In this document: positions 36,227-61,656 of the stretch, in pieces
Position numbering within the stretch: the stretch's first letter is position 1
How the letters are laid out: every line of letters starts with the position of its first letter
Source: Aquidulcibacter sp.
GTDB lineage: Bacteria; Pseudomonadota; Alphaproteobacteria; Caulobacterales; Aquidulcibacteraceae
Reading direction: 5' to 3'
Length of the DNA stretch: 64,000 bases
NCBI GenBank assembly: GCA_027532555.1
Contig: JAPZTJ010000029.1
Coordinates: 1 to 64,000 of the forward strand
Translations under genes and position numbers: made by a program
The notes under the pieces: model-generated
What the model was told of the DNA's origin: nothing
Seen by the model: the letters and a program-made list of their open reading frames with translations, nothing else
Databases searched by the model: none

Positions 36227-36260
36227 CTATGTCCCCTTCCCTCTCGTTAGAATGTGATGA

Positions 36261-36908: not shown

Positions 36909-36921
36909 CTTTCTACCTCCT

Positions 36922-37663: not shown

Positions 37664-40615
37664 CTAGCAAAAAGCTGGTTCAGAAGGGGCTTTATACTTT
37701 TCACAGCAGGCATAAAGTGCCAGCGCCATGGTCTGTGCATCGGCATGGCGAGCCATCGCCCAAACAGGACCCGCTTGCTTCCAATCTGGCTCGCCATTGC
37801 CAGCGTTACGCCAAATCCACGCCACGGCGTCATGGATCAGATCATCGAGAACAATGTCCTGATCAACCCGATAGTCCGGATCACGCTCGTGCCGGTTAGC
37901 CAGGACATTCAACGCTTCAAGGCAGAAGGTGCGATAAGCAGGGTCGGGGATTGTCTCCAGACGAACCTCAATCTCGAGGGCGAAATCCTTCTCCCAAGCA
38001 GTGAGGTCGGACCTGGCAACAGCGGCATCTAGGCGATTGTTGGCCCCAAACACGATGCCAGGGCACACATGGAGTAGGGACCACAGCCGTGCGAAGAAGT
38101 CACTGCCGACACGGGTCAGAACGCCCAAACGTACCCGCCATTGTTCCCAGTCGCTGCCAATTGCCTGTGCAGAAGGGGTCAAGGCGAAAGTCGGGGCAGG
38201 GGAGACCACCGCCCGCACAGAGGGTGTCTCGAGCAAGATCGCCTTCACGCGGTCAAACAGGACGCTGGGCGGTTCTGCCACCAGATTCTCCATCCCGCCG
38301 ATTTCTTCTTGACCCAAGCGATCGACAATCTCTGCTAGCCTAATGGTCCGCATGCCGCGCACCGCATTGGAGTCTGACTTACTAAACAGACCCAATGCCT
38401 GCAGTACCTCTTGAGCGATGACTGCATGTAATTTCGAATGAAGACCCTCTTCAATCATGGTCACCAGCTCCCCCTCAGGAACCGGACGTGTGATAACGCG
38501 ACCCTCGCCAAGGCCTAAGCGCCTTAGGCGCACCACAATGTCCTTGGCGGAATCCTGCAAGCGCGGATCGGTACGGTTCAGCCACGCGGCCCCCCGCCGC
38601 GCTGTTGCCCAATCCCCGGCTCTCCCAGCCGCTTCATAAGTCCGCTCAACTTCTGTCGGGTCCCCTGAAGCGATCGCATCATCGAGACCTCGACCAAATC
38701 CATTTTTCTGGGGTTCTGGCAAACCTTGGTTGTCATCCGCGCGCAATTCCGGTGGCAGAAGAGAGCCAATTGACTGTGATTTGGCTTGGGCGCGCAGGGC
38801 TTCCTCAATCCGAACCAGCTTGGTGCGCGCAAAATCGACCTGACCTCGCTGAACTTCGTGGAGGAGATCAATCAGGCGCTCGACGCCAGTGCCTTGCATG
38901 GCGGTTGCATCGACACATAGGATGAAGACCGGATTGTCCTGCCCGCGCCAATGCCGGGCGACATAACGTAGATCGCCACGTAAACGGCGCGCCCGAGCTG
39001 CGGCATCATAGCGAATATGGTGGTCGTGGGCCTCTAGCAAGGTCGCAGAGAACAATACGTGCTGGCCTTCCGATTCATAGACATAGGCATTTGCAAGTGG
39101 CCCAAGACGCTTTTCAGGGCGCCCGGTTAGACCCAAATGCTGATTCCTGCCGATCTGAGTCCAAACACTGACCAGGTCTCCTGCCGGGCGAATGATCACC
39201 TCCGAACCAAGCTCTGACATCTGATCTGAGATCAGGCCAAGGCCTTGGAGCTTGGCAGCGGTTTCTGCATCTTCTGCGACAATGACAAAAGCGACCTCTG
39301 CCTGATGGGTGCGGTTCAGATGATGGCGACGACCTAGCGGATCAATGTCTTCGGGCGCTAGCAGGCCTTCTTGTAACATGGCCCCCAGCGCCCAGAGTGA
39401 TTGTGCCCAAAGAAGTGGCAGATTGGCGTTGGCAACCCGGTCTTGACTACCTGGAGCAGCGGCTTCGGCTTCAACGGCATCGGCTTCCACGTAATAAAGC
39501 TCTGGCAAAAGTGGCAGGCCATCGCGCATCTGAAACAGCGGCTCCAGCCGATCCGCCCAAGCGCCCGCCCCCCGCTTATCCCCGGTCATCTCTGCATCGA
39601 CGAGAAGGTAGGTAAAGAAGAGTGGCCATTCGGACTCGATATTGGCAAATTTTGAAAGCTCACCGGCATGATAGTGCAAGCGATGCTCATCTTCCACGGT
39701 CGTTTGGTGGCCATCGCGCAAGAAACGCTTGCAGCCATACCTGCCGGCAAGGCGATCCAAGATCCGACTGCGTGTATGGGCGATCATCACCTTGTCGTCG
39801 AGGGCAAAAGCTGGCCAGCCAACAACGGCTAGAAGTGCGGCATCGGTTTCTTTTGAGGCAGATTCTCCTGGCAGCAGAACCTGCAAAGTCTCTCGTGCAC
39901 GGGCGATGTCATCAGCTGGCACGCGGATCGGTCCACGAGCGCTACAGCCAAATTCGAGGCCGTCTAAGGCCTCCAGCGCCGCTTTGGCGATTCCGACGGA
40001 GCTGGCGTTGATTTCAACCACGCCGTCATTGGATTTGCGCCCGCGTTCCCAAATACCGTAATCGGCAATTCGGTAGGCCGGCCCAATATAATGCACGAGG
40101 TTTTGGACAAAATCGACTTCATCGGCGGTTTCAACCACTTTGAGGCCACCGGCTGTCATTTGCGCTAAGAATAACAAGAAAAGCGACGTGGCATCAATTT
40201 GCAGATGACCCCAATGGGCGTCGCCGACCACGGGCTTACCGCTCGCCGCATCATATTTGGCGTGCAGGCCATCGAGCGGGTCTTGGGTGTATTTGAACTT
40301 TTCAACTTTGTCGGCCTGACCCATCATGGCCGACAAGAGGCCGCGCATCAGCCGGACGACACTGGCCTCTAAATGGGCAGCGCGCTCTGACCTAGGATGA
40401 TCTAGGCGCTTATAGGCACAAGCAAGGCCCCATGCGCCAAGAATGGAATAGACATTGTCGCGCACCCACGCATGCGCATAGTCCCCGTGGACAGTTTTGG
40501 CCGTACTGGCAGGCAAAAGCCCAGCTTCAGCGCTCAATCGCTTGAGAAAGATCGCGTCAATATGGTCATACCAATGACTAAGACGCGCTTCCAAATTCGG
40601 GGTCAATGCGCTCAT
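37664..40615 (-). CDS. Phosphorylase-kinase alpha/beta-like protein (GH15-like domain)
   Basis: This 983-residue protein closely resembles eukaryotic phosphorylase b kinase alpha and beta subunits over its length. The N-terminal (alpha/alpha)6 GH15-like domain shows HAWVRDNVYSILGAWGLA (48-65), SVVRLMRGLLSAM, DKVEKFKYTQDPLDGLHAKY, GHLQIDATSLFLLFLAQMTA and DYGIWERG with a possible catalytic Glu190; ESEWPLFFTY (327-336) has a possible second. The C-terminal region (SDFFARLWSLLHVCPGIVFG and FALEIEVRLETIPDPAYRTFCLEAL) matches the conserved C-terminal part of the animal subunits, as I recall them. No kinase (gamma) gene or glycogen phosphorylase is in the window. It is the last gene of the glgB-glgX-malQ operon, five bases behind malQ. 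It may bind or hydrolyse alpha-glucans, or regulate glycogen enzymes. Confidence 0.85.
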   Translation of the reverse strand: MSALTPNLEARLSHWYDHIDAIFLKRLSAEAGLLPASTAKTVHGDYAHAWVRDNVYSILGAWGLACAYKRLDHPRSERAAHLEASVVRLMRGLLSAMMGQADKVEKFKYTQDPLDGLHAKYDAASGKPVVGDAHWGHLQIDATSLFLLFLAQMTAGGLKVVETADEVDFVQNLVHYIGPAYRIADYGIWERGRKSNDGVVEINASSVGIAKAALEALDGLEFGCSARGPIRVPADDIARARETLQVLLPGESASKETDAALLAVVGWPAFALDDKVMIAHTRSRILDRLAGRYGCKRFLRDGHQTTVEDEHRLHYHAGELSKFANIESEWPLFFTYLLVDAEMTGDKRGAGAWADRLEPLFQMRDGLPLLPELYYVEADAVEAEAAAPGSQDRVANANLPLLWAQSLWALGAMLQEGLLAPEDIDPLGRRHHLNRTHQAEVAFVIVAEDAETAAKLQGLGLISDQMSELGSEVIIRPAGDLVSVWTQIGRNQHLGLTGRPEKRLGPLANAYVYESEGQHVLFSATLLEAHDHHIRYDAAARARRLRGDLRYVARHWRGQDNPVFILCVDATAMQGTGVERLIDLLHEVQRGQVDFARTKLVRIEEALRAQAKSQSIGSLLPPELRADDNQGLPEPQKNGFGRGLDDAIASGDPTEVERTYEAAGRAGDWATARRGAAWLNRTDPRLQDSAKDIVVRLRRLGLGEGRVITRPVPEGELVTMIEEGLHSKLHAVIAQEVLQALGLFSKSDSNAVRGMRTIRLAEIVDRLGQEEIGGMENLVAEPPSVLFDRVKAILLETPSVRAVVSPAPTFALTPSAQAIGSDWEQWRVRLGVLTRVGSDFFARLWSLLHVCPGIVFGANNRLDAAVARSDLTAWEKDFALEIEVRLETIPDPAYRTFCLEALNVLANRHERDPDYRVDQDIVLDDLIHDAVAWIWRNAGNGEPDWKQAGPVWAMARHADAQTMALALYACCEKYKAPSEPAFC

Positions 40616-40620
40616 GTGGG

Positions 40621-42144
40621 TCAGCGTCCGTATTCTTTCGCGAGATCAAACAGCTTCTTACGGGCCGCCGGCTTAAAGTCGGCCGCCTCAAATCGCCAGT
40701 TCCAATTATCTTCAATCGTGCCGGGCGTATTCATGCGGCCGTTGCCGTCTAGGCCAAACACATCCTGTAACGCGATAATGGCGAGGTTGGACCCCGATTG
40801 CATAGCCAGTTCAATGAAGCGCCAATGAAGGTCAGTGCCGTCCCCGCCGAGGAGCTCTAGGGCAGCGGCGGCTTCCCGGGGCGCATCATTGGCGCGCTCT
40901 GCCGCCTCCCGACCATCATTCTTGAACCAACCAATCACCGTATTGTTGTCATGCGTGCTGGGATAGCAAACGGTCGCAGCGGGATAGTGGTAAGGGTGGC
41001 GCTCATTGTGCGGGGGGCCATCACCAAATTCAAACTCAAGGATTTTGAGGCCGGGAAAGGCAAATTTGTCGCGCAGGGTGATAACGTCTTCGGTAATATG
41101 CCCCAGATCCTCCGCAATCACTTTCAAGTCCGGTAGGGCTGTCATAATGGACGTGAACAGGGCATCGCCCGGAACATCGACCCATTGACCGTTAATCGCT
41201 GTGGTCTCGCCAGCCGGGGTTTCCCAACAGGATGCAAAGCCACGGAAATGGTCGATGCGCACCGCATCAGCAAAATCGAGCAAGCGACGCATGCGCGCGA
41301 CCCACCAAGAAAAGCCATCTTCGGCCATCTTGTCCCATTCATAAATGGGATTGCCCCAAAGCTGACCCGTCGAACTGAAATAGTCTGGCGGAACGCCCGC
41401 CCCGACGCGGGTATTAAAATCTGCATCCAGTTTAAACAAATCGGGACGCGCCCAAACGTCGGCAGAATCATGGGCGACGAAGATAGCCATGTCGCCAATG
41501 ATCATGATCCCCTTCGAGGCGGCATGAGCGCGCAAGCGCTGCCAGCGAAGATCAAACAGGAATTGCAGGGCCTCAATTGCCGAAATCTCAGAGGCGAGCG
41601 ACTTGCGTGCCTCTGCTAAAGCCTTAGGCTCTCTCCGGCGCAGATCATCAGGCCAATGCATCCAACCTTGGCGCTGACGCGAAACCGAAATGGCTTCAAA
41701 TAACGCATAATCATCCAGCCATGCTGCACCATGCTTGGCCTTAAATGCCTGTAAGCCGCTGGCCATAGGATGGTCGGCTTGGGCTGCCAAGCGACCGCCC
41801 GCTAAGGCCAAGACTTTCAAACGGGCAGGGACGGTGACGTCATAATCAACTTTGATTTGCGGTAGGGCTTTAAGATGTGCGACTTCGTCGACGGACAAGA
41901 GCTTGGCTTCAACCAAGCCGTCGATATCAATCAGAAGCGGATTGGCAGCAAAGGTTGTCGTAGCCGAATAAGGGCTTGCATTATTGCCGGTCGCATTAAT
42001 CGGCAGGATTTGCCACAGCTTTTGTCCAGACTCCGCCAAAGCATCGATGAAGGCCATCGCGTGATCGCCGATTTCACCAATCCCATAGGGGCCAGGCAGG
42101 CTGGTTGGATGGAGCAAAATGCCACTAATGCGATCAAAAGCCAT
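40621..42144 (-). CDS. malQ: 4-alpha-glucanotransferase (amylomaltase)
   Basis: This 507-residue GH77 enzyme moves maltosyl units between alpha-1,4-glucans and frees glucose. Family segments include GILLHPTSLPGPYGIGEIG at the N-terminus, ALAESGQKLWQILPINATG, GDMAIFVAHDSADVWARPDLF, the nucleophile Asp in AVRIDHFRGF, the acid/base Glu in VIAEDLGHIT and the C-terminal TVCYPSTHDNNTVIGWF. I use ATG 42144 (MAFDRISG); a start at 42177 would overlap glgX by 44 bases. It lies between glgX and the phosphorylase-kinase-like gene in the glycogen operon and links maltodextrin from the importer to glucose for Glk. Confidence 0.93.
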   Translation of the reverse strand: MAFDRISGILLHPTSLPGPYGIGEIGDHAMAFIDALAESGQKLWQILPINATGNNASPYSATTTFAANPLLIDIDGLVEAKLLSVDEVAHLKALPQIKVDYDVTVPARLKVLALAGGRLAAQADHPMASGLQAFKAKHGAAWLDDYALFEAISVSRQRQGWMHWPDDLRRREPKALAEARKSLASEISAIEALQFLFDLRWQRLRAHAASKGIMIIGDMAIFVAHDSADVWARPDLFKLDADFNTRVGAGVPPDYFSSTGQLWGNPIYEWDKMAEDGFSWWVARMRRLLDFADAVRIDHFRGFASCWETPAGETTAINGQWVDVPGDALFTSIMTALPDLKVIAEDLGHITEDVITLRDKFAFPGLKILEFEFGDGPPHNERHPYHYPAATVCYPSTHDNNTVIGWFKNDGREAAERANDAPREAAAALELLGGDGTDLHWRFIELAMQSGSNLAIIALQDVFGLDGNGRMNTPGTIEDNWNWRFEAADFKPAARKKLFDLAKEYGR

Positions 42145-44233
42145 GTCCGGTCTTTCCAATTGTTCTAGAGGTGTCACGCGAAAACACGATAAGTGTTCGT
42201 GTTGGAAGTCGAATTGTTTGGCCGCCCGCTGCCACTTGATCCTGGGTTGGACGAATGGGGTCGGCAGTCGTCAATGCCATCCGCCAAACACCTGTCCCAG
42301 TGGGTGGCAAGATAAAGGCTGCATCCTCAAGGCTTGCATTAAACAGGATCAGCCAGCCACGTGGCTCATACACTGCGGCAAAACATTGGGTTTTGTGATC
42401 CATCCAGTCCTTATGGGTCATAAGATTGCCCCATACGCTCCACCAAGCAATCGTCGGCTCACGCTCACCTGGACCATTGGGATGGCCTTCGGGGAAGCTT
42501 GCGAACATCTCTTTGCGCAGCATGATCAGCTGCTTGGTAAAGGCCAAACGTTGTGCGCCAAGGCGCGAGCTGGGCAGACGCCAATCCAGCCAGCTGATGG
42601 CATTATCTTGCGCATAAGCATTGTTGTTGCCGCCTTGCGTGCGACCCATTTCATCGCCTGCCAACAACATAGGCGTGCCGAAGCTTAAAAAGACGCTGGC
42701 CAACATATTGCGCGCTTGGCGTTCGCGGAGCTCTTCAATCTCACGGTCAGCTGTTTCGCCTTCGACACCATAATTGGACGAGAAGTCATGATCACCGCCA
42801 TCGCGATTATTCTCGCCATTGGCGTGATTGTGCTTATGCGCATACCGCGTGAGGTCTAAAAGCGGAAATCCGTCATGGCACGCGACGAAATTAACGCTGG
42901 ACTCTACCGGCTTGCCCTTATTGCGAAATAAGTCTGGGGAACCCGCTAAGGCTTTGGCGAAGTTGCGTGCCATATCCTGATCGCCACGCCAAAACTGCCG
43001 GATTGAATCGCGAGCTTGGCCGTTCCAATCTGCCCATTCAGGTGGAAAGTCACCGACATAATAGCCCCCTGCGGCGTCCCAAGCCTCAGCAACGAGTTTG
43101 ACGTCTTGGAGACGCGAGTCTTGCCGGACCGCTTCAAAGAAGGGAGCCTCCCGGCTGAACCGGCTCGCCTCATCCAAGCCAAGTGAAGGGGCAATATCAA
43201 AGCGGAAGCCGTCGAGGCCATAGCATTGCACCCAATGGGCCAAAGACTCCACGATCAGGTCGCGGACTTGGGGGTGTCCGGCATTGAGCGTCGCGCCACA
43301 GCCACTGATATCGGCATAGCGGCTTAAGTCCTGCGGATCTAGGCGGTAGTAAGAAGCATTGTCGATGCCGCGAAACGACAGTGTGGGGCCATGCCGATTG
43401 CCTTCACACGTGTGGTTATAGACCACATCCATCCACACATCGAGATTGCGTGCATGGGCGTTTTGAACAAAGGCGCGCATTTCGGCTATTGGATCGCCTA
43501 GCGCGTAATCTTGGTGCGGCACAAAATAACTCAGGGTGTTGTAGCCCCAAAAATTGTTCAAGCCTTGATCAACCAAGAACCGGTCGTGGATGAATTGATG
43601 AACGGGCAACAGCTCAATCGTTGTGATCCCAAGCGCACATAAATAGTCGAGAGCCGCTTGACTGCCGAGACCCGCAAAAGTGCCGCGCTCTTTGTCCGAT
43701 AGGCTCGGCAGTTGCATGGTAAAGCCTTTAGCGTGCAACTCGTAAACCAGAGTCTCGCGCCAAGGCCTCGCGCCATGACGGGGCAGGGGGGTCAGTGCGA
43801 CAGGGTCCACGACCACAGCTTTTAAACAAGTCGCAGCATTGTCGCGATGATCGGGCATGCCATCGGGATCATGGCTCTCGTAAAAATAGCCAAAATGTTC
43901 TGGTCCCCAGCGGAATTGCCCTGCAACGGCTTTTGCATAGGGATCGAGCAACAGCTTATGGGGATTGAACAAATGGCCTTGATCAGGCCGGTAAGGGCCA
44001 TGGACGCGGTAGCCGTACACGGTACCCGCTCCAAGCTTAGGCGCAAATCCATGCCAGATGTCGCCTTTGCGAGCCGGAAGGTCGGCGCGCGCAATCTCGT
44101 GCTTTCCATCGCTTGAAAACAAGACCAGCTCAACCCGCACACCATGGGCACTAAACAGCGCGAAATTCACGCCACCCTCACCGAGCGTCGCGCCCAATTG
44201 ATTTGGGTTGCCAGGTTCCAGTCGCAGCACCAT
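42134..44233 (-). CDS. glgX: Glycogen debranching enzyme GlgX
   Basis: This 699-residue GH13 isoamylase-type enzyme hydrolyses alpha-1,6 branches of glycogen or limit dextrin in the cytoplasm. It has an N-terminal CBM48-like domain (LGATLGEGGVNFALFSAHGVRVELVLF, VYGYRVHGPYRPDQGHLFNPHKLLLDPYAK), the nucleophile Asp in GLDGFRFDIAPSLG, the acid/base Glu in LVAEAWDAAGGYYVG and the third acid in FVACHDGFPLLDL. The characteristic SSNYGVEGET and PMLLAGDEMGRTQGGNNNAYAQDN are present. Length is normal. It is 14 bases downstream of glgB and overlaps malQ by 11. Confidence 0.95.
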   Translation of the reverse strand: MVLRLEPGNPNQLGATLGEGGVNFALFSAHGVRVELVLFSSDGKHEIARADLPARKGDIWHGFAPKLGAGTVYGYRVHGPYRPDQGHLFNPHKLLLDPYAKAVAGQFRWGPEHFGYFYESHDPDGMPDHRDNAATCLKAVVVDPVALTPLPRHGARPWRETLVYELHAKGFTMQLPSLSDKERGTFAGLGSQAALDYLCALGITTIELLPVHQFIHDRFLVDQGLNNFWGYNTLSYFVPHQDYALGDPIAEMRAFVQNAHARNLDVWMDVVYNHTCEGNRHGPTLSFRGIDNASYYRLDPQDLSRYADISGCGATLNAGHPQVRDLIVESLAHWVQCYGLDGFRFDIAPSLGLDEASRFSREAPFFEAVRQDSRLQDVKLVAEAWDAAGGYYVGDFPPEWADWNGQARDSIRQFWRGDQDMARNFAKALAGSPDLFRNKGKPVESSVNFVACHDGFPLLDLTRYAHKHNHANGENNRDGGDHDFSSNYGVEGETADREIEELRERQARNMLASVFLSFGTPMLLAGDEMGRTQGGNNNAYAQDNAISWLDWRLPSSRLGAQRLAFTKQLIMLRKEMFASFPEGHPNGPGEREPTIAWWSVWGNLMTHKDWMDHKTQCFAAVYEPRGWLILFNASLEDAAFILPPTGTGVWRMALTTADPIRPTQDQVAAGGQTIRLPTRTLIVFSRDTSRTIGKTGHGF

Positions 44234-44247: not shown

Positions 44248-46512
44248 CTATGCCGGAACGAGATAAAGGCCAGCAAGTGGTGGCAGGGTCAGGACGATGG
44301 AGGCCGGTTGGCCATTGAAGGGCACTGCTTCGGCCTCAACTTGGTTTGGACCGTCAAAATTGGACCCGTCATAGGCGGAGGAGTCCGTGTTCAGAATCAC
44401 CTTCCAAGCCCCGCCATGAGGCACGCCCACCCGATACTCAACACGCGGTACCGGTGTCATATTGATGAGGGCGAGAATTTTCTCTGAGCGATCATGATTC
44501 CAGCGCAAGAAGGCAAAAACCGAAACATCGGCGGCGTCTGCTTGCACCCATTCAAAGCCTGATGGGTCACAATCGCGCTGGTGCAGGGCAGGGGTGGACC
44601 GATAGAGATTGTTCAAGTCCCGGACCAGTGACTGAATGCCCTTGTGGCTTGGCTGATCTAACAAGTGCCAATCAAGGCTGCCTTCATGATTCCACTCAGC
44701 GACTTGGCCAAATTCCGCCCCCATAAACAACAGCTTCTTGCCGGGATGGGCCCACATCAACGCATAATAGGCGCGTAAGTTCGCGTAACGCTGCCAATCA
44801 TCCCCGGGCATGCGCGAGAAGATAGAGCCTTTGCCGTGAACGACTTCATCATGGCTGAGTGCCAGCATGAAGTTCTCAGACCACGCATAGGCAAGCCCAA
44901 AGGTGATCTCACCATGGTGCCAAGCGCGGTGGATGGGGTCGCGGCTCATATATTGAAGCGTGTCATGCATCCAGCCGAGGTTCCACTTGAACCCAAAGCC
45001 AAGCCCACCGTCATAGGTTGGCTTACAAACACCAGCCCAGGCGGTGGATTCTTCGGCCACCATCATGATGCCATCGGCTTCGCCATAGCACATCTCATTG
45101 AGACGACGCATAAATTGGACGGCTTCTAAATTGATATTGCCGCCGTAAATATTGGGGATCCATTCGCCATCGGCACGGGAATAGTCGAGGTAAAGCATCG
45201 AGCTGACCGCATCGACGCGTAGACCGTCAATCTTGAAGCGGTCGAGCCAAAACAGGGCCGATGAGACAAGAAAATTGACAACTTCGGGCTTGGTGAAGTC
45301 ATAAATATTGGTCTTCCAATCGGGATGGAAACCAAGGCGCGGATCGGCATGTTCATAGAGCGCCGTACCATCAAATCGGTTCAAGCCATGGCCGTCAATC
45401 GGGAAATGGGCCGGAACAAAGTCGCACAGGACGCCAATTTCAGCTGCGTGCAAGCGGGCGACAAGGTCACGAAACTCGTTCGCGGTGCCAAAACGGCTGG
45501 TGGCGGCAAACAGCCCAACTGGCTGATAGCCCCAAGATCCGTCAAAAGGATATTCGCTTAGGGGCATGAATTGGACATGGGTGAAGCCCATGTCGCGGAC
45601 ATAGGGGATCAGCCAATCGCCGAGTTCTGCATAAGTAAGCGGGCGATTGCCTTCTTCAGGCTTACGCCGGAAAGAGCCTGCATGAACTTCATAGACCGAG
45701 ATGGCCGCATCGAGACCATGGCGACTATGGCGTGTTCTCAGCCAATCTTGGTCTGTGTCCACGCTTTTAGGCGGGTCTACCAAGCGGCTGGCGTTGGCGG
45801 GGCGAAGCTCTGCCGCCTGTCCAAATGGGTCCGACTTCAAAGGCTGAAGATCGCCGTTTGCGCCGATGATCTCGTATTTATAGATGTCGTTGGCAGAAAG
45901 GCCGGGGATGAAAATCTCCCAAATGCCAGCATCATGGAGCTTGCGCATGATGTGGCGACGTCCATCCCAATTATTGAACGGGCCAACCACCGACACCCGC
46001 TGGGCCGCAGGGGCCCAGACGGCAAAGGCAAAGCCTTCGACATGATCTAGGGTGACCCGACGTGCGCCCAGACATTCCCAAGCCCGCCAAAGCTGGCCTT
46101 GGCGAAAGCGCAAAATTTCTTTCGTGCTTAAAACGCCGGCAAACCGATAGGGGTCCTCAAGGCGGACGACTTCGCCATCCCAGTTCGCCAGATAATGATA
46201 AGAAAGTGGCTGCTTCTTGGGTTGGGCAATTTGGGCCACAAACAGTCCGTCTGGATGCACCTTGGTCATGCTGATCGAGAGCTTTTGACCCTCGCAAATC
46301 AAGGTGACCTCATCGGCTGCCGGCAGAAAGCAGCGCACCAAAATCTCGCGTGTGCCATCATCAACATGCGGGCCCAAGAAGGCGAATGGGTTCGCGTGAG
46401 TTCCCTCTATCAAGGCCAACACGTCGTTCTGATCCGCCAGTGCAGGACCCAAAGCCGCTGCGCCGTTTGAAGGTGCCTTTTGTGCTTTTGCCCGGGTCGT
46501 CTTTGGGGCCAT
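44248..46512 (-). CDS. glgB: 1,4-alpha-glucan branching enzyme GlgB
   Basis: This 754-residue GH13 branching enzyme creates alpha-1,6 branches in glycogen. There are two CBM48-like N-terminal modules (first about 30-120 with NPFAFLGPHVDDGTREILVR, second about 130-230 with FAVWAPAAQRVSVVGPFNNWDGR), then the catalytic barrel: LCDFVPAHFP, nucleophile in KIDGLRVDAVSSMLYLDYSR, acid/base in IMMVAEESTAWAG, and LALSHDEVVHGKGS. The C-terminus has GSLDWHLLD and a beta domain. Length is typical of the long GlgB form. Its ATG overlaps the stop of the hexR-like gene (TAATG), showing coupling. glgA, glgC and glgP are not in the window. Confidence 0.96.
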   Translation of the reverse strand: MAPKTTRAKAQKAPSNGAAALGPALADQNDVLALIEGTHANPFAFLGPHVDDGTREILVRCFLPAADEVTLICEGQKLSISMTKVHPDGLFVAQIAQPKKQPLSYHYLANWDGEVVRLEDPYRFAGVLSTKEILRFRQGQLWRAWECLGARRVTLDHVEGFAFAVWAPAAQRVSVVGPFNNWDGRRHIMRKLHDAGIWEIFIPGLSANDIYKYEIIGANGDLQPLKSDPFGQAAELRPANASRLVDPPKSVDTDQDWLRTRHSRHGLDAAISVYEVHAGSFRRKPEEGNRPLTYAELGDWLIPYVRDMGFTHVQFMPLSEYPFDGSWGYQPVGLFAATSRFGTANEFRDLVARLHAAEIGVLCDFVPAHFPIDGHGLNRFDGTALYEHADPRLGFHPDWKTNIYDFTKPEVVNFLVSSALFWLDRFKIDGLRVDAVSSMLYLDYSRADGEWIPNIYGGNINLEAVQFMRRLNEMCYGEADGIMMVAEESTAWAGVCKPTYDGGLGFGFKWNLGWMHDTLQYMSRDPIHRAWHHGEITFGLAYAWSENFMLALSHDEVVHGKGSIFSRMPGDDWQRYANLRAYYALMWAHPGKKLLFMGAEFGQVAEWNHEGSLDWHLLDQPSHKGIQSLVRDLNNLYRSTPALHQRDCDPSGFEWVQADAADVSVFAFLRWNHDRSEKILALINMTPVPRVEYRVGVPHGGAWKVILNTDSSAYDGSNFDGPNQVEAEAVPFNGQPASIVLTLPPLAGLYLVPA

Positions 46513-47381
46513 TAGCGCGCATCCTCATAAAAAGTCGTGTCGTCCAAGCTGGCCTTTTGCGCGCTCTGCCGGTCCCGACGTCGTGCGTCAGCATAGGCAT
46601 TTTCGCGCTGCGACTGCAGCATTTCGGAATCTGCTTGCGAAAAATGTCCGCTTTTGGAAAGCCGCGCCTCGATCCCAAGACGGATGGCCTCAATGACTGC
46701 CGCATAGGCTAGGAAGTCGCTCAAGCCGATATCAAATTGGCCAAGAGCAATGGTAGCAGGCAAGCCCGCATGGCCGATCAGAGCAACCCGCCCACCTTGT
46801 GCGCAAATATCTTTAAGGCTTTGCTCTACCTCTGGGATCCGCTCGCTCGACTTCAGTGCGATCACCAAAACGCTGTCGCGGCGCCCACTAATGTCTGCTG
46901 TGGTTTGATCGGACACTTCTAGCCCACAGCTGCGCAACGCGCCCACCAGCGTGTCCGCAAACAAGGTTTCTGCGCCAGAATGGAGCACGATGATTCGCCC
47001 GCTGCCGGCGCAAATCTCCAAAAGCGTATCAATCTCATCAAGGGCTAGGCCAGCACCCTTTTGTCCAAGGGTCTTTGTGACCTGCTCAAAGAGCGCCTGT
47101 CCAAGGCCACTTGGGCCCTTCACATGCGGGTTCTGCCGGCTCATGGACAAGGTGCGACGCTCTAGGTCGCGCGCAAGGCTGAGCTTGAAATCCATAAAGC
47201 CCATGCAACCAATCGCCTTACAAAAGCGCATAATCGTAGGCTCTGAGACATCGGCGCGCTCTGCCAGATCGGCGATCGACATTTCAACCACCACCGTGGG
47301 GCGGCCCAGAACAAAGCGGGCTACACGCTGCTCAGACGGGCGTAGTTCGGCAAGATGAGAATCGATCTGACTGATGATCAT
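46512..47381 (-). CDS. hexR: RpiR/HexR-family transcriptional regulator
   Basis: This 289-residue regulator has an N-terminal RpiR helix-turn-helix (SIADLAERADVSEPTIMRFCKAIGCMGFMDFKLSLARDL, about residues 35-73) and a SIS sugar-phosphate domain (IIVLHSGAETLFAD, VLVIALKSSERIPEVEQSL). Length and HTH match HexR, which represses glucose and Entner-Doudoroff genes and is released by 2-keto-3-deoxy-6-phosphogluconate. Lying next to glgB and divergent from the importer/ED operon, it is well placed to control both. The palindrome at 47474 is its candidate site. Function as HexR rather than another RpiR protein is a reasoned inference. Confidence 0.8.
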   Translation of the reverse strand: MIISQIDSHLAELRPSEQRVARFVLGRPTVVVEMSIADLAERADVSEPTIMRFCKAIGCMGFMDFKLSLARDLERRTLSMSRQNPHVKGPSGLGQALFEQVTKTLGQKGAGLALDEIDTLLEICAGSGRIIVLHSGAETLFADTLVGALRSCGLEVSDQTTADISGRRDSVLVIALKSSERIPEVEQSLKDICAQGGRVALIGHAGLPATIALGQFDIGLSDFLAYAAVIEAIRLGIEARLSKSGHFSQADSEMLQSQRENAYADARRRDRQSAQKASLDDTTFYEDAR

Positions 47382-47700: not shown

Positions 47701-48813
47701 ATGGCAGGCATCACTTTTGAAACCGTCGCAAAGCGATATGGCGAAACGGATGTCATCAGAAACCTTTCTCTCGACATCAAAGATGGTGAGTTCATGGTTC
47801 TGGTTGGGCCATCGGGATGTGGCAAGTCGACCGCCCTGCGGATGATTGCGGGCCTCGAATCGGTCTCAGCGGGCCAATTAAAAATTGCAGATCGGGTGGT
47901 CAATGATTTGAAGCCCAAAGACCGTGATGTCGCCATGGTGTTTCAATCCTATGCCCTTTACCCACATATGACGGTTCGCCAGAACGTCGCCTTTGGTCTT
48001 GAAGTGCGCAAAATGCCCAAGGCCGAAATTGAAAAGCGCGTTCAAGAAGCTTCGGCCATTTTGGGCCTCGACCCGTATCTGGACCGCAAGCCAAAGGCGC
48101 TGTCAGGTGGTCAGCGGCAACGTGTGGCGTTGGGCCGTGCGATTGTTCGCGACCCTTCAGTCTTTTTGTTCGACGAACCCTTATCAAATCTCGACGCTAA
48201 GTTGCGGACGGGCATGCGGGCAGAGATTTCGCGTTTGCAGAAGCGCCTAGGCACCACCGCCGTATACGTGACCCACGACCAAACCGAAGCGATGACCATG
48301 GGCGATCGGATTGCGGTCTTGGCACCATTGGCAGAGGCAGGCGACAGCAATCTAATGCAAGTCGGCACGCCTCTGGAACTTTATCACCGACCCAGCAGTG
48401 TTTTTGTGGCTCGCTTCATTGGTGCGCCCAGCATGTCGATTTTGACGACCCATTTGGCAGGGCGCGCGATTTCCCATGCAGCCTCGCCTGGCTTCGCCAT
48501 GCCAGAGCGTTGGGAGCCATCTAGCCAAGTCGGTGACAGCGTCCTGCTCGGCTTCCGGCCTGAGGACGTCCGTCTGGTCGGCCAAAATAGCTTTGTGGAG
48601 GCTGCCCATTTCAAGGGTCGGGTGGAAATGGTCGAAACTTTGGGGCACGAGGTCCTAACCCATCTCGACGTTGACGGTGCCACTTTAATCGCGAAGAGCC
48701 ATGGTGAAGCGCCCCTCCCGAAACTGGGCGAAATGGTCGAAGTTGAGGCTGATTTGAGCAAGGCTCACTTCTTTGATGTGTCGACAAACTTGCGCCTGAC
48801 CGAGAAGGCTTAA
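47701..48813 (+). CDS. malK: Maltose-type ABC transporter ATPase MalK
   Basis: This 370-residue ABC ATPase is of the MalK/UgpC group. It has Walker A GPSGCGKST, Q-loop VFQSYALYPHMTVRQNVAFGL, signature LSGGQRQRVALGRAIVR, Walker B VFLFDEPLSNLD and the H-loop YVTHDQTEAM, then a C-terminal TOBE regulatory domain (SVLLGFRPEDVRL). It powers the importer made by the next three genes. ATG 47701 is the first start in the frame. Starch/glycogen genes on both sides make maltodextrin the likely substrate; trehalose and glycerol-phosphate importers share this type, so the substrate is inferred from context. Confidence 0.88.
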   Translation: MAGITFETVAKRYGETDVIRNLSLDIKDGEFMVLVGPSGCGKSTALRMIAGLESVSAGQLKIADRVVNDLKPKDRDVAMVFQSYALYPHMTVRQNVAFGLEVRKMPKAEIEKRVQEASAILGLDPYLDRKPKALSGGQRQRVALGRAIVRDPSVFLFDEPLSNLDAKLRTGMRAEISRLQKRLGTTAVYVTHDQTEAMTMGDRIAVLAPLAEAGDSNLMQVGTPLELYHRPSSVFVARFIGAPSMSILTTHLAGRAISHAASPGFAMPERWEPSSQVGDSVLLGFRPEDVRLVGQNSFVEAAHFKGRVEMVETLGHEVLTHLDVDGATLIAKSHGEAPLPKLGEMVEVEADLSKAHFFDVSTNLRLTEKA

Positions 48814-48816
48814 GCG

Positions 48817-50103
48817 ATGGCCTCACACGAAAGTCACGGGGGATCACCCACCAAACGAACATTTCTTGCGGCCTCGCTAGGTCTGTCAGGCGCAGCGCTA
48901 TTGGCGGCGTGCGGTAAATCCGCAGATAGTAGGCACCCGGCACTGGTGGTTTGGCATGCGTATCGTGGGCGCGAGAAATCAGCCCTTGAGGAAGTGGCAG
49001 CGCTTTATTCAGCCCAAGTTGCCGGAAAGGCCCGCCCTGTCCGCTGTGTTGGCGTGCCCAATGATGCCTTCGCGGACAAGCTTTCTGCAGCGGTGCCCCG
49101 CGGGAAGGGGCCAGACTTATTTATCTTTTCCCACGACCGCTTGGGCGGTTGGGTCGAAAGCGGCAAAACTGTTGCACCGATCGATTTCTTCCTGAGTGAC
49201 GAAGATCGTCAAGGCTTTTTGCCGGGCATGCTGGATGCCACGACCTATAAAGGCGTAACCTATGCTTTGCCGCTGAATTTTAAATCAGCGGCTCTGATCT
49301 ATAACAAAAAGATGGTGCCCAATCCGCCGCGCACCACCAAAGAGCTTGTCGAGATTGCGACCAAGCTGACGGATAAAGGTCGCGGTCGATTTGGCTTTGC
49401 CTATGCCTATGACGATTATTTCTTCCATGCCGGCATTGGCAATGGGTTTGGCGGCGGTGCTTTTAATGCAGCAGGCGATTTGATCTTGAATGATCCTGCC
49501 AATGTCGCGGCCTCTGATCTGGTACGCAAGTGGCGATCTGAACTCAATCTCTTACCAGATGATCCCGCCAACTCTCTTGTGACGGCCCTATTCAATGAAG
49601 AGCGCGCTGCGATGGTTATGAGTGGGCCGTGGTTCTTAAGCGAGGCGTCTAAGTCGATTGATTTGGGTATTGCGGTTCTGCCAATGATATCTGAAGCCGA
49701 TGATAAGCCAATGCGGCCCTGGATGACGATTGAGGCCATCTATCTGGCTGCGGGTACGGCAGACGAACATGAGGCCTGGCAATTCGCAAAGTTTCTCGCA
49801 GGCCCACAGGCTTCTGCCATTATGGCGCAAAAGGGCGGGCAATTGCCGGCCTCGCAGGCGGCCTATAGCGTCCCTGCCATTGCCAACGACCCCATCATCT
49901 CCGCCTTTAAGGCCCAAGGTGCTTTGGCCGTTCCTATGCCTAATCTGCCAGAGATGACGCTGGTTTGGTCACCCGCTGACAAAGCGATGAAGCGGTTCAC
50001 CAAAATGGAAACAACCTCCAAATCGGCCTGGAATGATTGTCAGACAGAGGTTCAGGCGGCCATCGATGCCTTGCGGGCTTCCCAAGCTGGGGGGCGGGCA
50101 TGA
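48817..50103 (+). CDS. malE: ABC transporter sugar-binding protein (lipoprotein), MalE-like
   Basis: This 428-residue solute-binding protein has an N-terminal signal with KRTFLAAS and a lipobox LLAAC (Cys32), so it should be membrane-anchored on the periplasmic side. The mature part shows the family-1 sugar-binding pattern: ALVVWHAYRGREKSALEEVAALY, GPDLFIFSHDRLGGWVESG, YALPLNFKSAALIYNKKMVPNPP, AMVMSGPWFLSEA and AWQFAKFLAGPQASAIMA. It delivers a maltodextrin-like sugar to MalF/MalG. It starts 3 bases behind malK. Confidence 0.85.
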   Translation: MASHESHGGSPTKRTFLAASLGLSGAALLAACGKSADSRHPALVVWHAYRGREKSALEEVAALYSAQVAGKARPVRCVGVPNDAFADKLSAAVPRGKGPDLFIFSHDRLGGWVESGKTVAPIDFFLSDEDRQGFLPGMLDATTYKGVTYALPLNFKSAALIYNKKMVPNPPRTTKELVEIATKLTDKGRGRFGFAYAYDDYFFHAGIGNGFGGGAFNAAGDLILNDPANVAASDLVRKWRSELNLLPDDPANSLVTALFNEERAAMVMSGPWFLSEASKSIDLGIAVLPMISEADDKPMRPWMTIEAIYLAAGTADEHEAWQFAKFLAGPQASAIMAQKGGQLPASQAAYSVPAIANDPIISAFKAQGALAVPMPNLPEMTLVWSPADKAMKRFTKMETTSKSAWNDCQTEVQAAIDALRASQAGGRA

Positions 50104-51905
50104 AACGTAATCTAAGCGCTGTATTCTTTGCCCTGTTGGTCGTTATATCCGGGGCTTTATTCTTTCTCCAACAAGCCGCCCAGCATCGCGATCAAGCCGC
50201 GGCGGGCGCTATTGCGCTGGCCACCGCTTCTGATTTGGCCAACCTTGGCTCAAAAGGCCTAGAAGCGGGCTTGAGCGAGCAAGTCGTCGGCACCATGATG
50301 GCAGATGTGCTCAAGCGCTCTGGCCGGGAGGGGGACCGTTTTCGCCTTGTCCTGCGAAACACCAAGCAATTATCTGCCAGCAATTGGCCGGGCGACGCCG
50401 CGCCACGCCCTTTGGAAATCAGCGAAAAGCCTCTGTTCGATTTGATTCTGGGCTTGCCTGTGGCTGGGGCGAAGCTTGACCCCACCGCCGAAGGGGCCCG
50501 TGCGGCCGCACCGCTGGTCGTGGCTGAACAACGCGTTGGCATGGTCGAGATTATTCACACGTCACAGGTCGCTGGGCCGCCTCTGATTTCCCTGCTTCAG
50601 TGGGGAGCGATTGGTATGGGCGTGTTGGCCATCTTGGGTCTTGCCCTTGTCCAACCAAAGTTGGGCGCGTGGGCGGGTGTGGTTCTGCCCCTTGGTGTAG
50701 CTTTCGTAATTGGGCAATTGACTGGGGCTAATTTGGCCAGCACGGCTCAAATACTGCTCGATCATCTCAACACCACCGCGCGCGCTGTGGATGAAGCCAT
50801 GCGGGCGGTAGCTGTTTCAAACGGTGTTGCGCTTACGGGTGATGCCATTCGTCTCGACACAGCACGAGTTGCCGGTGCGGTAGATGGGGCGGCGCTCAAC
50901 ACATCGCTCCTTTTCCTAGGTGGACTTGGTGCCATCATTGGGGCCTTTATTAGCTTTGGCGCAGCCTCTTCCACCTGGCGTGCGCTGAAAGAAAACCCCA
51001 CTGCCTATGTTTATGTCGCGCCAGCCTTGATTGGCATGTTAGCGCTGGCCTTCTTCCCCTTCCTCTATGGCTTTGTTCTGTCCTTCACAGACACGACTTT
51101 GTTGAACCAAGGGGCTAGCTGGAGTGATCGCTGGGTAGGGCTGGCAAACTACGCGAGCATCTTGGGCGACTTTAACTTTGGCGGGGCCGGTGCCGCGGTT
51201 AACTATCAGAACTTTTATTGGACCCTTGGTGTCACCATTGTTTGGACCGTTTCAAACGTTGTTCTTGGGGTGGCAATTGGCCTCGGGATGGCGTTGTTGC
51301 TCAACATCAAGGGGCTACGCGGGGTTGCGATTTATCGCACGCTTTTGATCCTGCCTTGGGCCATTCCAAATTATATTACCGCCTTGACGTGGAAAGGGAT
51401 GTTCCACCCGCAATTTGGCGCAATCAATCAAGCCATCCAAGCTTTTGGCGGGCAACCCGTGCAGTGGTTTGATGCTGTGGGGCCCAGCTTCGTTACAGGC
51501 CTTGCCACCAATGTGTGGCTGTCCTTCCCCTTCATGATGGTGGTGGCGCTTGGTGCACTACAAGCTGTCGATGAAGATATGTATGAGGCGGCCCGCATTG
51601 ATGGGGCTTCGCCTTGGCAGCAATTCTGGTTGATCACCTTGCCAAGCCTGCGGCCCGCCCTTTTGCCCGCCATTATCGTCTCGGTGGTTTGGACGTTTAA
51701 CATGTTCAATGTGATTTATCTGGTCAGCGCCGGCCAACCCTCGGGGGCCAATGAGATCCTCGTGACACGCGCTTACCGGATCGCGTTTGAAGAATATCGT
51801 TACGGCTATGCCGCAGCTTATTCGGTCGTGATTTTCCTGATTTTGCTGATTTATGGCGTGTTCCAGATCCGCGCGACTTCCGCCACGGAGGCCAATAACA
51901 AATGA
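50100..51905 (+). CDS. malF: ABC transporter permease MalF-like, with N-terminal extension
   Basis: This 601-residue permease is longer than common MalF (about 300-510). The C-terminal third (about 370-590) is the classical BPD_transp_1 domain with the EAA loop EAARIDGASPWQQFWLITLPSLRPA. In front lies about 320 residues: a transmembrane helix (5-27), a periplasmic region with MMADVLKRSGREGDRFRLVL and VVAEQRVGMVEIIHTSQV, three or more helices and a second periplasmic part (LASTAQILLDHLNTTARAVDEAMRAVAVSNG) that looks like a sensor or cache-type domain. ATG 50100 overlaps the malE stop. It forms the pore with MalG. Confidence 0.88.
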   Translation: MKRNLSAVFFALLVVISGALFFLQQAAQHRDQAAAGAIALATASDLANLGSKGLEAGLSEQVVGTMMADVLKRSGREGDRFRLVLRNTKQLSASNWPGDAAPRPLEISEKPLFDLILGLPVAGAKLDPTAEGARAAAPLVVAEQRVGMVEIIHTSQVAGPPLISLLQWGAIGMGVLAILGLALVQPKLGAWAGVVLPLGVAFVIGQLTGANLASTAQILLDHLNTTARAVDEAMRAVAVSNGVALTGDAIRLDTARVAGAVDGAALNTSLLFLGGLGAIIGAFISFGAASSTWRALKENPTAYVYVAPALIGMLALAFFPFLYGFVLSFTDTTLLNQGASWSDRWVGLANYASILGDFNFGGAGAAVNYQNFYWTLGVTIVWTVSNVVLGVAIGLGMALLLNIKGLRGVAIYRTLLILPWAIPNYITALTWKGMFHPQFGAINQAIQAFGGQPVQWFDAVGPSFVTGLATNVWLSFPFMMVVALGALQAVDEDMYEAARIDGASPWQQFWLITLPSLRPALLPAIIVSVVWTFNMFNVIYLVSAGQPSGANEILVTRAYRIAFEEYRYGYAAAYSVVIFLILLIYGVFQIRATSATEANNK

Positions 51906-52780
51906 CGTCATCCGATCAAAAGCGCGCGCCCCTTTGGCTACATCCTATTTTGATACTCATCACGCTGTTTGCACTCTATCCGGTTTTCTGGGTCTTGGCG
52001 TTGGCGTTCTCAGGCACCCAGAATATTGGCTTGGCGGACTTGCCAGCCAATCCTGGCTTTTGGGATCGTATGCGGGCGGCAACGCCGGTACCGGCCCAAT
52101 GGTCAATGGAAAACTTTGTCGGCGTCTTGCGCGATCAGCCCTTCCTTCAATGGATGCTGAACAGCTTGTTGGTTGCGGCACTGACCACCGTGTTTGGCGT
52201 CGCTTTGGCTTGTTCGGCCGGCTATGCCTTCTCGCGCTTTCGCTTCAAGGGCCGCGAAACGGGCATGACCTTATTCCTCGTCACCCAAATGTTTCCGGGC
52301 ACCCTGATGCTGATCCCGCTCTATGTGATCATTGTGGATTGGCTGGATCTCGACAATTCGATTTGGGCTCTGGTGATTGTCTATTCAGTTACCGCCATTC
52401 CGTTTTGTGTGTGGATGTTGAAGGGCTATTTCGACTCCATCCCCATCGAGATTGAAGAAAGCGCGATCATGGACGGATGTTCCCCGTCACGCATTTTCTT
52501 TCAAATCGTCTTGCCTTTGGCTCGACCCGCCGTTGCCGTGACGGCTCTATTCAGCTTCATGACGGCGTGGAACGAGTTCATCCTCGCGGCCACCTTTATG
52601 GATGAAGAGGCGCTTTATACGGCCCCGGTGGGCTTAAGGTTCTTCGTCAGCGAATATTCCTCTCAATGGGGCTATTTCGCTGCGGGTTCTATCTTGGTTT
52701 CCCTGCCGGTAGTTGCCCTATTCTTGATGTTGCAAAGGTTCCTTGTGTCAGGCCTAACAGCCGGTGGGGTGAAGGGGTGA
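51902..52780 (+). CDS. malG: ABC transporter permease MalG-like
   Basis: This 292-residue inner-membrane permease has six helices and the EAA loop EESAIMDGCSPSRIFFQIVLPLARPAV. The N-terminus ILITLFALYPVFWVLALAFSG and the ending FLMLQRFLVSGLTAGGVKG are typical of MalG. The final LTAGGVKG tail probably reaches towards the ATPase dimer. It overlaps malF by 4 bases (ATGA). Confidence 0.92.
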   Translation: MTSSDQKRAPLWLHPILILITLFALYPVFWVLALAFSGTQNIGLADLPANPGFWDRMRAATPVPAQWSMENFVGVLRDQPFLQWMLNSLLVAALTTVFGVALACSAGYAFSRFRFKGRETGMTLFLVTQMFPGTLMLIPLYVIIVDWLDLDNSIWALVIVYSVTAIPFCVWMLKGYFDSIPIEIEESAIMDGCSPSRIFFQIVLPLARPAVAVTALFSFMTAWNEFILAATFMDEEALYTAPVGLRFFVSEYSSQWGYFAAGSILVSLPVVALFLMLQRFLVSGLTAGGVKG

Positions 52781-52784: not shown

Positions 52785-54458
52785 ATGAGGTGCCTCGCTC
52801 TTTGTGCGCATGTCCTTCTAGGCTTAGCCTTCGCCTCCGTGGTCTGGGCAAAGCCAGCCCCTGAGCCAATCGTGATTTCCAAGCCCATGGGCCAGACTGA
52901 AGCCCGTCTGCCCTGTAACCGCGGTGGAAGCCCGTTTTGCGAGCTTCGCCTCTATCAAGTCATGGTCGGGACGTTTGTCGATGGCACGCCAGATCACGAT
53001 CCGATTGGCGGCTATGGGCCCGGCCCGCATACCGGGGACATCAAGGGTGTTATCCAAGCTTTGGATACCATTAAAGCCATGGGTTTTAATGCCGTCTGGC
53101 TCACGCCTATTTTCGATAGCGCCGCCGGCAGCCCACAGCATCGTCATTCCGGCGAGAAAGTGGTCAATCCCCGCCTTGATGGCACCGGCTATTATCCGCG
53201 GGACTATTTCAAAGTTGATCCTCAATATGGCACGGCGCAGGATGTGCGCGATCTGATCGCGGCCGCCCAACAGCGTGACCTGAAAATCATTTTCGACGGT
53301 GTCTTTGGTCACCACAAAGGCAATCCTACCCCGTCACCCTCTGGTCTTGTTCCTGCGGCCTCCCAGCGTACTTCGGATTATTTTAATAGCCCTGAGACCT
53401 ATCCCGGTGAGGTGGTTGATTTTGCCAATCCCAAGTCGTTGGCTCTTTACGATGAAGTCGCCCGCTATTGGATCGATGTTTATGGCATTGATGGCTGGCG
53501 CTTGGATCAAGCCTATCAAGTGCCCAATCGGCCGATGGCGAGGCTGGTCAAATCCATCGCGCAGTCGTCGAAGGATCAGGGCAAGCTTGGCTATGTCGTC
53601 GGCGAGATTTGGGGCACGGCGGATAGAATTCGCGCCTCTCTGGGAACCAATGAAGAGCCTGCCTTACCCAGCGCGTTTGATTTCCCCACCCGTTATGCCT
53701 TGGTCCAAGTCTTGGCGACGGGTGAAGACGGCACGAAGGGCAAACCTGCCACGACTTTGCAGGACGGCTGGGCGATGGGCGCGCATGCCAGCTATCCTGA
53801 CCACGCCATTTTGAATTTGATGCTGGGCAATCACGACTTGGTCCGTTTTGGCGACTTAATCCAAAGGGCAGGGAAGGGCGACCTGAGTTCTGAGGCCTAT
53901 TGGGCCCGTCACCGTTTGGCTTTTACCTTCATGGCGGCTTGGTCTGGGCCGATCACCACTTATTATGGGGAGGAGGTGGGCGCTGAAGTCGCGGGATTCT
54001 CGATGAGATTGCCCAAAAATTGCGGCGAGGTTCAAAAGTGTGACGACCATATTGCTCGAAATATGGTCAAACTCCCCGGTATGAATGCAAAAAACACCGA
54101 TGTTCTGCCCAAAGCGCTTGCACTGCGCGACTACCTGACCGAGTTATTGGCCTTACGTAAGGTCAGCCCGGCGCTTTATGCCGGTTCGCGGACACATCTG
54201 TACTCGGATCAGCATCTCTATGTCGATCTCAAGGCGCTGGGCGCGGAGAAGTTTGTATTTGCTATGAATGTTTCTGATCTGCACCAAACCATTCGCTTGG
54301 CTAGAGGCGCGCTGTCTAACGAAGATCTCAGGGAAGCGCGACTGATGATTGGCGATATCAAGGTTCAAGGGACCGATCTTGGCCTTGAGATAGACTTGCC
54401 GCCGTTGAGCTCAGGCATTGTGCGCATCCAAACATCAGGGGACGCTGTACGTCCTTGA
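52785..54458 (+). CDS. Secreted GH13 alpha-amylase family protein
   Basis: This 557-residue GH13 enzyme has a signal peptide (LCAHVLLGLAFASVVWAKP, cleavage near residue 23), so it acts in the periplasm or outside. The catalytic triad can be placed: Asp241 in GIDGWRLDQAY, Glu274 in VVGEIWGT and Asp351 in MLGNHDLVRF; IIFDGVFGHHKGN holds the conserved His after strand beta-3. It would cut starch-like oligosaccharides into maltodextrins for the importer encoded just upstream. Nearby Cys pairs (PCNRGGSPFCEL; NCGEVQKCDD) suggest disulfides, fitting export. It starts 4 bases behind malG. Confidence 0.88.
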   Translation: MRCLALCAHVLLGLAFASVVWAKPAPEPIVISKPMGQTEARLPCNRGGSPFCELRLYQVMVGTFVDGTPDHDPIGGYGPGPHTGDIKGVIQALDTIKAMGFNAVWLTPIFDSAAGSPQHRHSGEKVVNPRLDGTGYYPRDYFKVDPQYGTAQDVRDLIAAAQQRDLKIIFDGVFGHHKGNPTPSPSGLVPAASQRTSDYFNSPETYPGEVVDFANPKSLALYDEVARYWIDVYGIDGWRLDQAYQVPNRPMARLVKSIAQSSKDQGKLGYVVGEIWGTADRIRASLGTNEEPALPSAFDFPTRYALVQVLATGEDGTKGKPATTLQDGWAMGAHASYPDHAILNLMLGNHDLVRFGDLIQRAGKGDLSSEAYWARHRLAFTFMAAWSGPITTYYGEEVGAEVAGFSMRLPKNCGEVQKCDDHIARNMVKLPGMNAKNTDVLPKALALRDYLTELLALRKVSPALYAGSRTHLYSDQHLYVDLKALGAEKFVFAMNVSDLHQTIRLARGALSNEDLREARLMIGDIKVQGTDLGLEIDLPPLSSGIVRIQTSGDAVRP

Positions 54459-54531
54459 GATAAAAACACTGATTTGGCGCTGTATTCCGCGACAAATCCC
54501 TTTAACCTTGAAGTTCCTATGGAGCGCTCCG

Positions 54532-56711: not shown

Positions 56712-56726
56712 TTGAGAGTGATGACA

Positions 56727-61647: not shown

Positions 61648-61656
61648 GGGGCTTTC

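Follow-up and report, generated by a model that had tools for sequence, protein, structure and literature searches.

A PHK-like gene at the end of a predicted glucan operon

In a window of 64,000 nucleotides from the alphaproteobacterium Aquidulcibacter sp. (assembly GCA_027532555.1, contig JAPZTJ010000029.1), the open reading frame (ORF) at 37664-40615 encodes a protein of 983 amino acids that is homologous over its full length to the alpha and beta subunits of phosphorylase kinase (PHK), and for which gene context and conserved residues point to a role as a glucan hydrolase. The interval given in an earlier note on this DNA coincided exactly with this frame, which is read from the minus strand. 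The glycoside hydrolase family 15 (GH15) or D1 domain (residues 25-432; 39320..40543, minus strand) was delimited by its PF00723 match (4e-56, 191.2 bits against a gathering score of 22), by alignments and by the residues described in PMC10978961, and it contains E190 and E372. The protein further comprises D2-D5-like regions and the PHK C-terminal domain KPBB_C (residues 819-938; 37802..38161, minus strand; PF19292, 5.5e-30, score 104.7 bits, cut-off 27). Inspected by eye, its N-terminus is without a hydrophobic stretch and the protein is predicted to be cytoplasmic.

The PHK-like gene is the last of five genes of one orientation that overlap or are separated by small gaps and are predicted to be transcribed as one unit. 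The first gene of this predicted operon encodes an RpiR-family regulator (46512..47381; best NCBIfam matches HexR-type, below cut-off), followed by the branching enzyme gene glgB (44248..46512; TIGR01515 above cut-off), the glycogen debranching enzyme gene glgX (42134..44233; TIGR02100 above cut-off) and malQ for a 4-alpha-glucanotransferase of family GH77 (40621..42177; Pfam and NCBIfam), all on the minus strand, with five bases separating the malQ stop from the PHK-like start codon. The three glucan genes named by the earlier note as encoded with the PHK-like gene were thus found directly upstream of it.

Homology to PHK alpha and beta subunits

A phmmer search of PDB chains with the PHK-like protein retrieved human PHKA1 (3.7e-153) and PHKB (4.7e-133), the sole further match at E≤10 being a ferritin (E 0.87); no PDB glucoamylase was found at this threshold by phmmer or with a profile built from 21 homologues. 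The profile matched PHKA1 at 1086.5 bits and PHKB at 906.6 bits in ordered stretches running from the N- to the C-terminal region over most of their length, and the two remaining PDB matches were to HNF-1-alpha (E 1.3). Over the compared D1-D2 part, identity of the window protein was 42.6% to PHK-alpha and 36% to PHK-beta. No NCBIfam family matched the protein at E 0.01 or better.

An AlphaFold2 model of the protein (predicted local distance difference test (pLDDT) 78.4, predicted template modelling (TM) score (pTM) 0.82) matched eight PHK chains in a fold search (TM score by query 0.82–0.85, root mean square deviation 4.4–7.0, 1016–1083 alignment columns) in a comparison of the whole subunit, with the D2-D5 domains not assigned singly. 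GH15 enzymes matched the model in the D1 part only (TM score by query 0.25–0.29; 5z3a, E 3.6e-8; 3eqa, E 2.1e-5). Because sequence, profile and fold searches all led to PHK chains, the homology is real and stronger than was first stated, and the protein is a full-length PHK alpha/beta homologue. The claimed likeness in the C-terminal domain was also confirmed, as both segments cited in support of it occur in the translation inside the KPBB_C match. Similarity limited to generic GH15 sequence was ruled out, since PHK chains were matched along their length and no glucoamylase was returned by the sequence or profile searches.

The ratio of non-synonymous to synonymous substitution (dN/dS) was 0.035–0.048 in the three usable of four same-genus pairs, a rough estimate given the high dS (0.78–1.6), and the gene looks to be under strong purifying selection. 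With full-length copies also present in six of eight other genomes of the genus, a frame artefact or pseudogene was ruled out.

Distribution of the family

PF19292 was found in seven of 398 sampled Pseudomonadota genomes, the window's own included, and in one of 14 control genomes (Synechococcus elongatus). Among near relatives, 11 of 41 genomes carried a PHK-like gene, again counting the window's own. A contig scan of prokaryotic genomes confirmed at least 567 related stretches, so that the protein is not a lone curiosity. By title, the 80 loci examined among these were cyanobacterial (68), from Methylococcaceae (five) and from Hyphomonadaceae or other Alphaproteobacteria (three), with one each from Thiotrichales, an unplaced gammaproteobacterium, Niveispirillum and Campylobacterales.

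The presence of PF19292 in bacteria is already plain from public genomes and the family is not new. No study of a bacterial PHK-like protein was recognisable by title or abstract start in the partial listings of openly licensed literature, and the available part of PMC2639635 makes no mention of bacteria. The function proposed below, the alternation with glycogen phosphorylase (GlgP), the glucokinase-linked operons and the MalQ fusion were likewise not met in that literature as searched by title and abstract start.

Conservation of the catalytic residues

According to the available part of PMC10978961, E185 and E371 of PHK-alpha are named as the catalytic pair and the beta subunit is without some of the catalytic residues. 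In the alignment of the two candidate glutamates proposed in the earlier note, E190 and E372 of the window protein align with E185 and E371. Both positions were Glu in 93 of 93 aligned bacterial sequences, as was the Arg of the WVRD motif in all 93; this alignment included 68 cyanobacterial sequences and at least one gene present twice (L028/L035). Both Glu were also present in 20 of 20 representatives sharing less than 70% identity. PHKB has Lys at the E371 position and Gln in place of the WVRD Arg.

Glucan metabolism in the window's genome

Divergent from the operon, the plus strand encodes a sugar ATP-binding cassette importer (47701..52780; an ATPase, a MalE-like binding protein and two permeases, MalE and MalK matches below cut-off) whose predicted substrate is maltodextrin, and a GH13 alpha-amylase-family protein (52785..54458; closest NCBIfam family maltodextrin glucosidase, its cut-off not reached) that is probably an alpha-glucosidase. 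These are followed on the same strand by zwf, a probable pgl and an edd/ilvD-family dehydratase gene, read as Entner-Doudoroff genes (54418..58619), by a glucokinase gene (58616..59584; PF02685 above cut-off at 4.9e-87; NCBIfam glk at 209.9 bits, slightly short of its cut-off of 225.45), and by eda, pyruvate kinase and aldose 1-epimerase genes (59606..62553; TIGR01182 above cut-off for eda). It is important to note that several names of these plus-strand genes rest on Pfam or sub-cut-off NCBIfam matches.

The assembly to which the window belongs is 3.49 Mb in size with a completeness of 100. No glycogen phosphorylase match (PF00343) was found anywhere in it, which extends to the whole assembly the phosphorylase part of the earlier observation that neither a kinase subunit nor a glycogen phosphorylase lies near the gene, and the PHK-like gene was its one GH15 gene. 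No GlgA match reached the curated cut-off in this genome (best of four weak matches 29.6 bits against 328.45), GlgC not having been searched. The name branched-glucan/maltodextrin operon therefore suits the set better than 'glycogen operon', and any branched glucan that the cell makes may be assembled by MalQ and GlgB out of imported maltodextrin.

Two further features of this contig were recorded. A GH13-type gene outside the window (G000:C69:68877-69908; 844-amino-acid frame with weak TIGR02100 matches) perhaps encodes a pullulanase. Just beyond the other side of the operon, at 34630-36980, lie genes for an RPA plasmid-type replication initiator and a ParA partition ATPase, and the locus may be situated on a plasmid or chromid.

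Gene neighbours of PHK-like homologues

A glucokinase gene lay directly downstream on the same strand, at a gap of -46 to 14 bases, in six of 75 loci examined of L037-L112. These six comprised five metagenome-assembled genomes (MAGs) of Methylococcaceae, so that every one of the five Methylococcaceae loci in the set of 80 was included, and one Campylobacterales MAG; glucokinase was called by Pfam on two of the six and by BLAST cluster on the others. In the Campylobacterales MAG (L083:6321-14947) the PHK-like gene, glk, zwf, pgl, edd and eda stood in a row, with an aldo/keto reductase gene upstream. In two loci of a distant family (L024 and L025) glgB and glgX adjoined the PHK-like gene.

Within the window's family, a single ORF (L030:98-3613) encoded MalQ (GH77) followed by a short PHK-like part with GH15 and KPBB_C, in which the spacing between these two domains was approximately 100 residues, compared with nearly 390 in the window protein. 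A short form of the same type (L029) lay beside cyclomaltodextrinase and GH97 genes, its upstream part being lost at the contig end. As a separate observation, the next gene downstream in 11 of the 75 loci was a short one from a single BLAST cluster (L047:3595-3972 and similar), and the one member scanned belonged to the PD-(D/E)XK nuclease family. No consistent metabolic partner was seen in cyanobacteria, where the neighbours, few of them assigned by Pfam, included MgtE, a WecG-type transferase, a PD-(D/E)XK nuclease and others.

Alternation with glycogen phosphorylase

The window's family was represented by 60 genomes, of which 11 had a PHK-like gene, four had GlgP and 13 had GlgX (at E≤1e-60). 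The 13 GlgX genomes divided into nine that had a full-length PHK-like gene without a GlgP match and four that had GlgP without a PHK-like gene, while none had both and none had neither. GlgX was incomplete and below the curated cut-off in one of the nine (G410) and in one of the four (G433).

Outside this family, a universal replacement of GlgP was weakened as an explanation, as PHK-like and GlgP-family genes often coexist there, and for this reason any replacement should be regarded as lineage-specific. PF00343 matches, some of them partial, were present in seven of seven cyanobacterial genomes, in five of five from Methylococcaceae and in the genome of the Campylobacterales locus.

Kinase partners and holoenzyme features

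The only Pkinase match in the window's genome was partial and lay on another contig (C46), and a kinase partner in the neighbourhood was ruled out. The C46-type kinase was also found in two genomes of the same genus without a PHK-like gene (G401 and G402) and was not found in one that has it (G398). As far as the available text of PMC10978961 describes, Y593 and K588 of PHK-alpha contact the gamma subunit and a CaaX farnesylation motif is a C-terminal feature of the PHK subunit. The window protein has Gln and Glu at the Y593 and K588 positions, and none of the 93 bacterial sequences has Tyr at 593 or Lys at 588, these being two residues of a gamma interface whose larger D5 part lies outside the comparison. 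There is no C-terminal CaaX motif in the window protein, which ends in EPAFC.

Proposed function and alternative explanations

We consider it likely, with considerable room for doubt, that the PHK-like protein is a cytoplasmic, kinase-free, PHK alpha/beta-type inverting GH15 exo-hydrolase that attacks branched alpha-glucan and maltodextrins at their non-reducing ends and replaces GlgP in this lineage. GlgB and MalQ would build and reshape a polymer out of imported maltodextrins, GlgX would take off its branches, the PHK-like protein would free glucose at the chain ends, and glucokinase would pass the released glucose to the Entner-Doudoroff pathway, with the PHK-like protein thus substituting for glycogen phosphorylase. 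Catalysis, substrate and product are all predicted here from residues and gene context. Support is drawn from the Glu pair and Arg retained in all 93 sequences, the alternation among GlgX genomes and the single GH15 gene in a genome where no GlgP was found, as well as from the glucokinase linkage in separate lineages, the adjoining glgB and glgX in L024 and L025, the MalQ fusion in L030 and a precedent in Sulfolobus, where glycogen phenotypes of GH15 mutants were described as consistent with a catabolic role in the available part of PMC11046441.

Several observations weigh against this interpretation. Conserved residues do not prove catalysis, because human PHK-alpha has both Glu and yet neither the human alpha-gamma-delta complex nor the holoenzyme showed activity towards maltose, isomaltose or glycogen, according to the available part of PMC10978961; a glucose-splitting role was apparently lost in the animal protein. 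The model of the window protein is weak at residues 188-200 and 302-323 (pLDDT <50), near one catalytic Glu, and the GH13 protein of the locus could likewise produce glucose. Few independent lineages stand behind the alternation with GlgP, as seven of the nine genomes belong to one genus and all four of the others to another, and the remaining two PHK-like genomes of the family (G406 and G409) carry divergent, short or fused forms without GlgX. GlgP was also present in four of six other Pseudomonadota with a PHK-like gene (G142, G340, G348 and G368; not G158 and G186). Of the 19 genomes traced from loci, 16 had a PF00343 match (nine full-length, seven partial at 33–90 bits), the three without it (L033-L035) being the same genomes as G398, G403 and G408 of the window's family. 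Among cyanobacterial loci, a glgB-cluster gene was found in one of 68 (L062) and a glgX- or malQ-cluster gene in none, in counts made on flanks of varying length in which divergent copies could be missed. No consistent metabolic partner was seen in cyanobacteria, where the neighbours, few of them assigned by Pfam, included MgtE, a WecG-type transferase, a PD-(D/E)XK nuclease and others.

The earlier note had left the role open between a glucan sensor, a scaffold and a hydrolase. In a catalytically silent sensor or scaffold, the GH15 pocket would bind chain ends while D2-D5 recruits or regulates MalQ, GlgX or GlgB, as PHK-alpha and PHK-beta scaffold their kinase. The human alpha subunit, with its intact-looking site and no detected activity in the available part of PMC10978961, is in keeping with this reading, a plain glucoamylase would have no need of the retained D2-D5 chassis, and MalQ is both the immediate upstream neighbour and the fusion partner in one relative. 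A silent pocket should, however, not need the Glu pair and Arg in 93 of 93 sequences. Against it also stand the glucokinase and Entner-Doudoroff genes to which PHK-like genes are linked in separate lineages, and no GlgP was found in the window's genome to supply sugar phosphate. Gene context and the invariant catalytic residues therefore favour the hydrolase, and we regard the silent protein as unlikely.

The specificity of a GH15-fold enzyme could also differ from that proposed. The action of GlgX and MalQ leaves short and branched fragments to be cleared, and this requirement could be served by an alpha-1,6 or alpha-1,2 glucosidase, a trehalase-like enzyme or a transglucosylase; a dextran dextrinase has been described as a GH15 hydrolase homologue in the available part of PMC12446779. 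The neighbourhood is nevertheless one of alpha-1,4/1,6-glucan metabolism in which debranching is already covered by GlgX, and such an activity appears improbable. A true regulatory subunit acting with an unlinked Ser/Thr kinase would be in keeping with PHK homology over the full length and with the partial Pkinase match elsewhere in the genome. This is highly improbable, as no GlgP was found as a phosphorylation target, the same kinase occurs in two genomes without the PHK-like gene, the two gamma-contact residues are not conserved in the bacterial sequences and the protein end is without CaaX.

Nucleotide pocket and evolutionary history

The available part of PMC10978961 gives R211, Y213, R214 and R274 as the adenosine diphosphate (ADP) contacts of PHK-beta, positions at which PHKA1 has A, Y, K and H. 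These residues were found in 80, 89, 89 and 87 of the 93 bacterial sequences, respectively, and in 12, 16, 16 and 15 of the 20 representatives; the window protein retains three of the four (P, Y181, R182 and R239). Three of the four pocket sites distinguish alpha from beta, and at each of them most bacterial sequences have the residue of beta. Across all 338 columns in which the two subunits differ, the bacterial consensus sided with beta alone in 72, with alpha alone in 124 and with neither subunit in 142, so that the agreement at the pocket is suggestive. It is not strong, as the pocket residues were about average in conservation for D1, where the mean top-residue frequency was 0.74 over 417 columns in 18 full-length representatives and the commonest residue reached a frequency of at least 0.83 in half of the columns.

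Departures from the pocket, which further limit this agreement, occurred in the short forms L029 and L030, in a gammaproteobacterium (L036, three of four residues changed) and in Thiotrichales (L077, two of four). In the latter two proteins (L036:9905-13198 and L077:9902-13195) the catalytic Glu pair is intact, and they would serve as natural controls for nucleotide gating. A decidedly tentative extension is that glucan hydrolysis by the bacterial proteins is gated by nucleotides and that they preserve a bifunctional ancestor, with the catalytic site still present in form in PHK-alpha and the ADP pocket kept by PHK-beta in one chain; after duplication in eukaryotes, alpha would have lost the pocket and beta, which has Lys for E371 and Gln for the Arg, the active site, and both would have been recruited together as a kinase scaffold.

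In a tree of 40 rows, PHKA1 and PHKB joined 18 cyanobacterial rows with a support of 96 (Shimodaira-Hasegawa-like approximate likelihood ratio test, SH-aLRT) and the window's group branched earlier. Cyanobacterial copies were also closer to PHKA1, at 51–54% identity in six representatives. Without PHKA1, PHKB remained in a supported set of 19 rows (98), whereas without PHKB, or without the two short forms, no supported set of at most half the rows held a eukaryotic sequence. Placement of both human sequences outside all full-length bacterial members was not rejected (approximately unbiased (AU) test, p=0.38), and the tree, which holds two human sequences only, was rooted on the short forms and brings long branches together, that of PHKB being very long. 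A kinase-free alpha-glucan role, as proposed in the earlier note, fits these data, but its ancestral status was not established: because the alternative placement stands, other sets of rows are less supportive and long branches meet, it is plausible and unproven that the PHK-like protein represents the ancestral state of the PHK subunits.

Comparison with known systems

The significance of the glucoamylase-like domains of PHK, and above all of the intact-looking site of alpha, was described as still to be investigated in the available part of PMC10978961 (2024). A kinase-free relative with the same catalytic pair, located in a glucan operon of a genome where no GlgP was found, makes this question testable in a simple system, for which the fused and glucokinase-linked forms are ready partners. 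Should glucan hydrolysis prove true, a glucan hydrolase would very likely be the ancestor of the PHK regulatory subunits, and these bacteria would possess a phosphorylase-free route of glycogen breakdown.

The window protein resembles PHKA1 and PHKB in its co-linear match, fold and KPBB_C domain and has the alpha-type catalytic pair, but it is shorter (983 amino acids compared with 1223 and 1093), is without CaaX and is changed at two gamma-contact residues, and neither a gamma nor a delta partner was found near its gene. With GH15 glucoamylases such as that of Aspergillus niger and the glycosidase 5z3a it shares a PF00723 match above cut-off and the D1 fold, whereas no PDB glucoamylase was found by sequence at E≤10 and the fold match is confined to D1. 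CauloGA of the alphaproteobacterium Caulobacter crescentus, a characterised exo-glucosyl hydrolase that acts on maltodextrins and starch (PMC3917699, available part), is a further precedent and was compared here by description, not by sequence; the control genome of Caulobacter vibrioides had a GH15 match and no KPBB_C match. The PHK-like proteins of cyanobacteria, Methylococcaceae and Campylobacterales belong to the same full-length family as the window protein and share its catalytic residues, although the cyanobacterial copies differ in lying mostly outside glucan operons.

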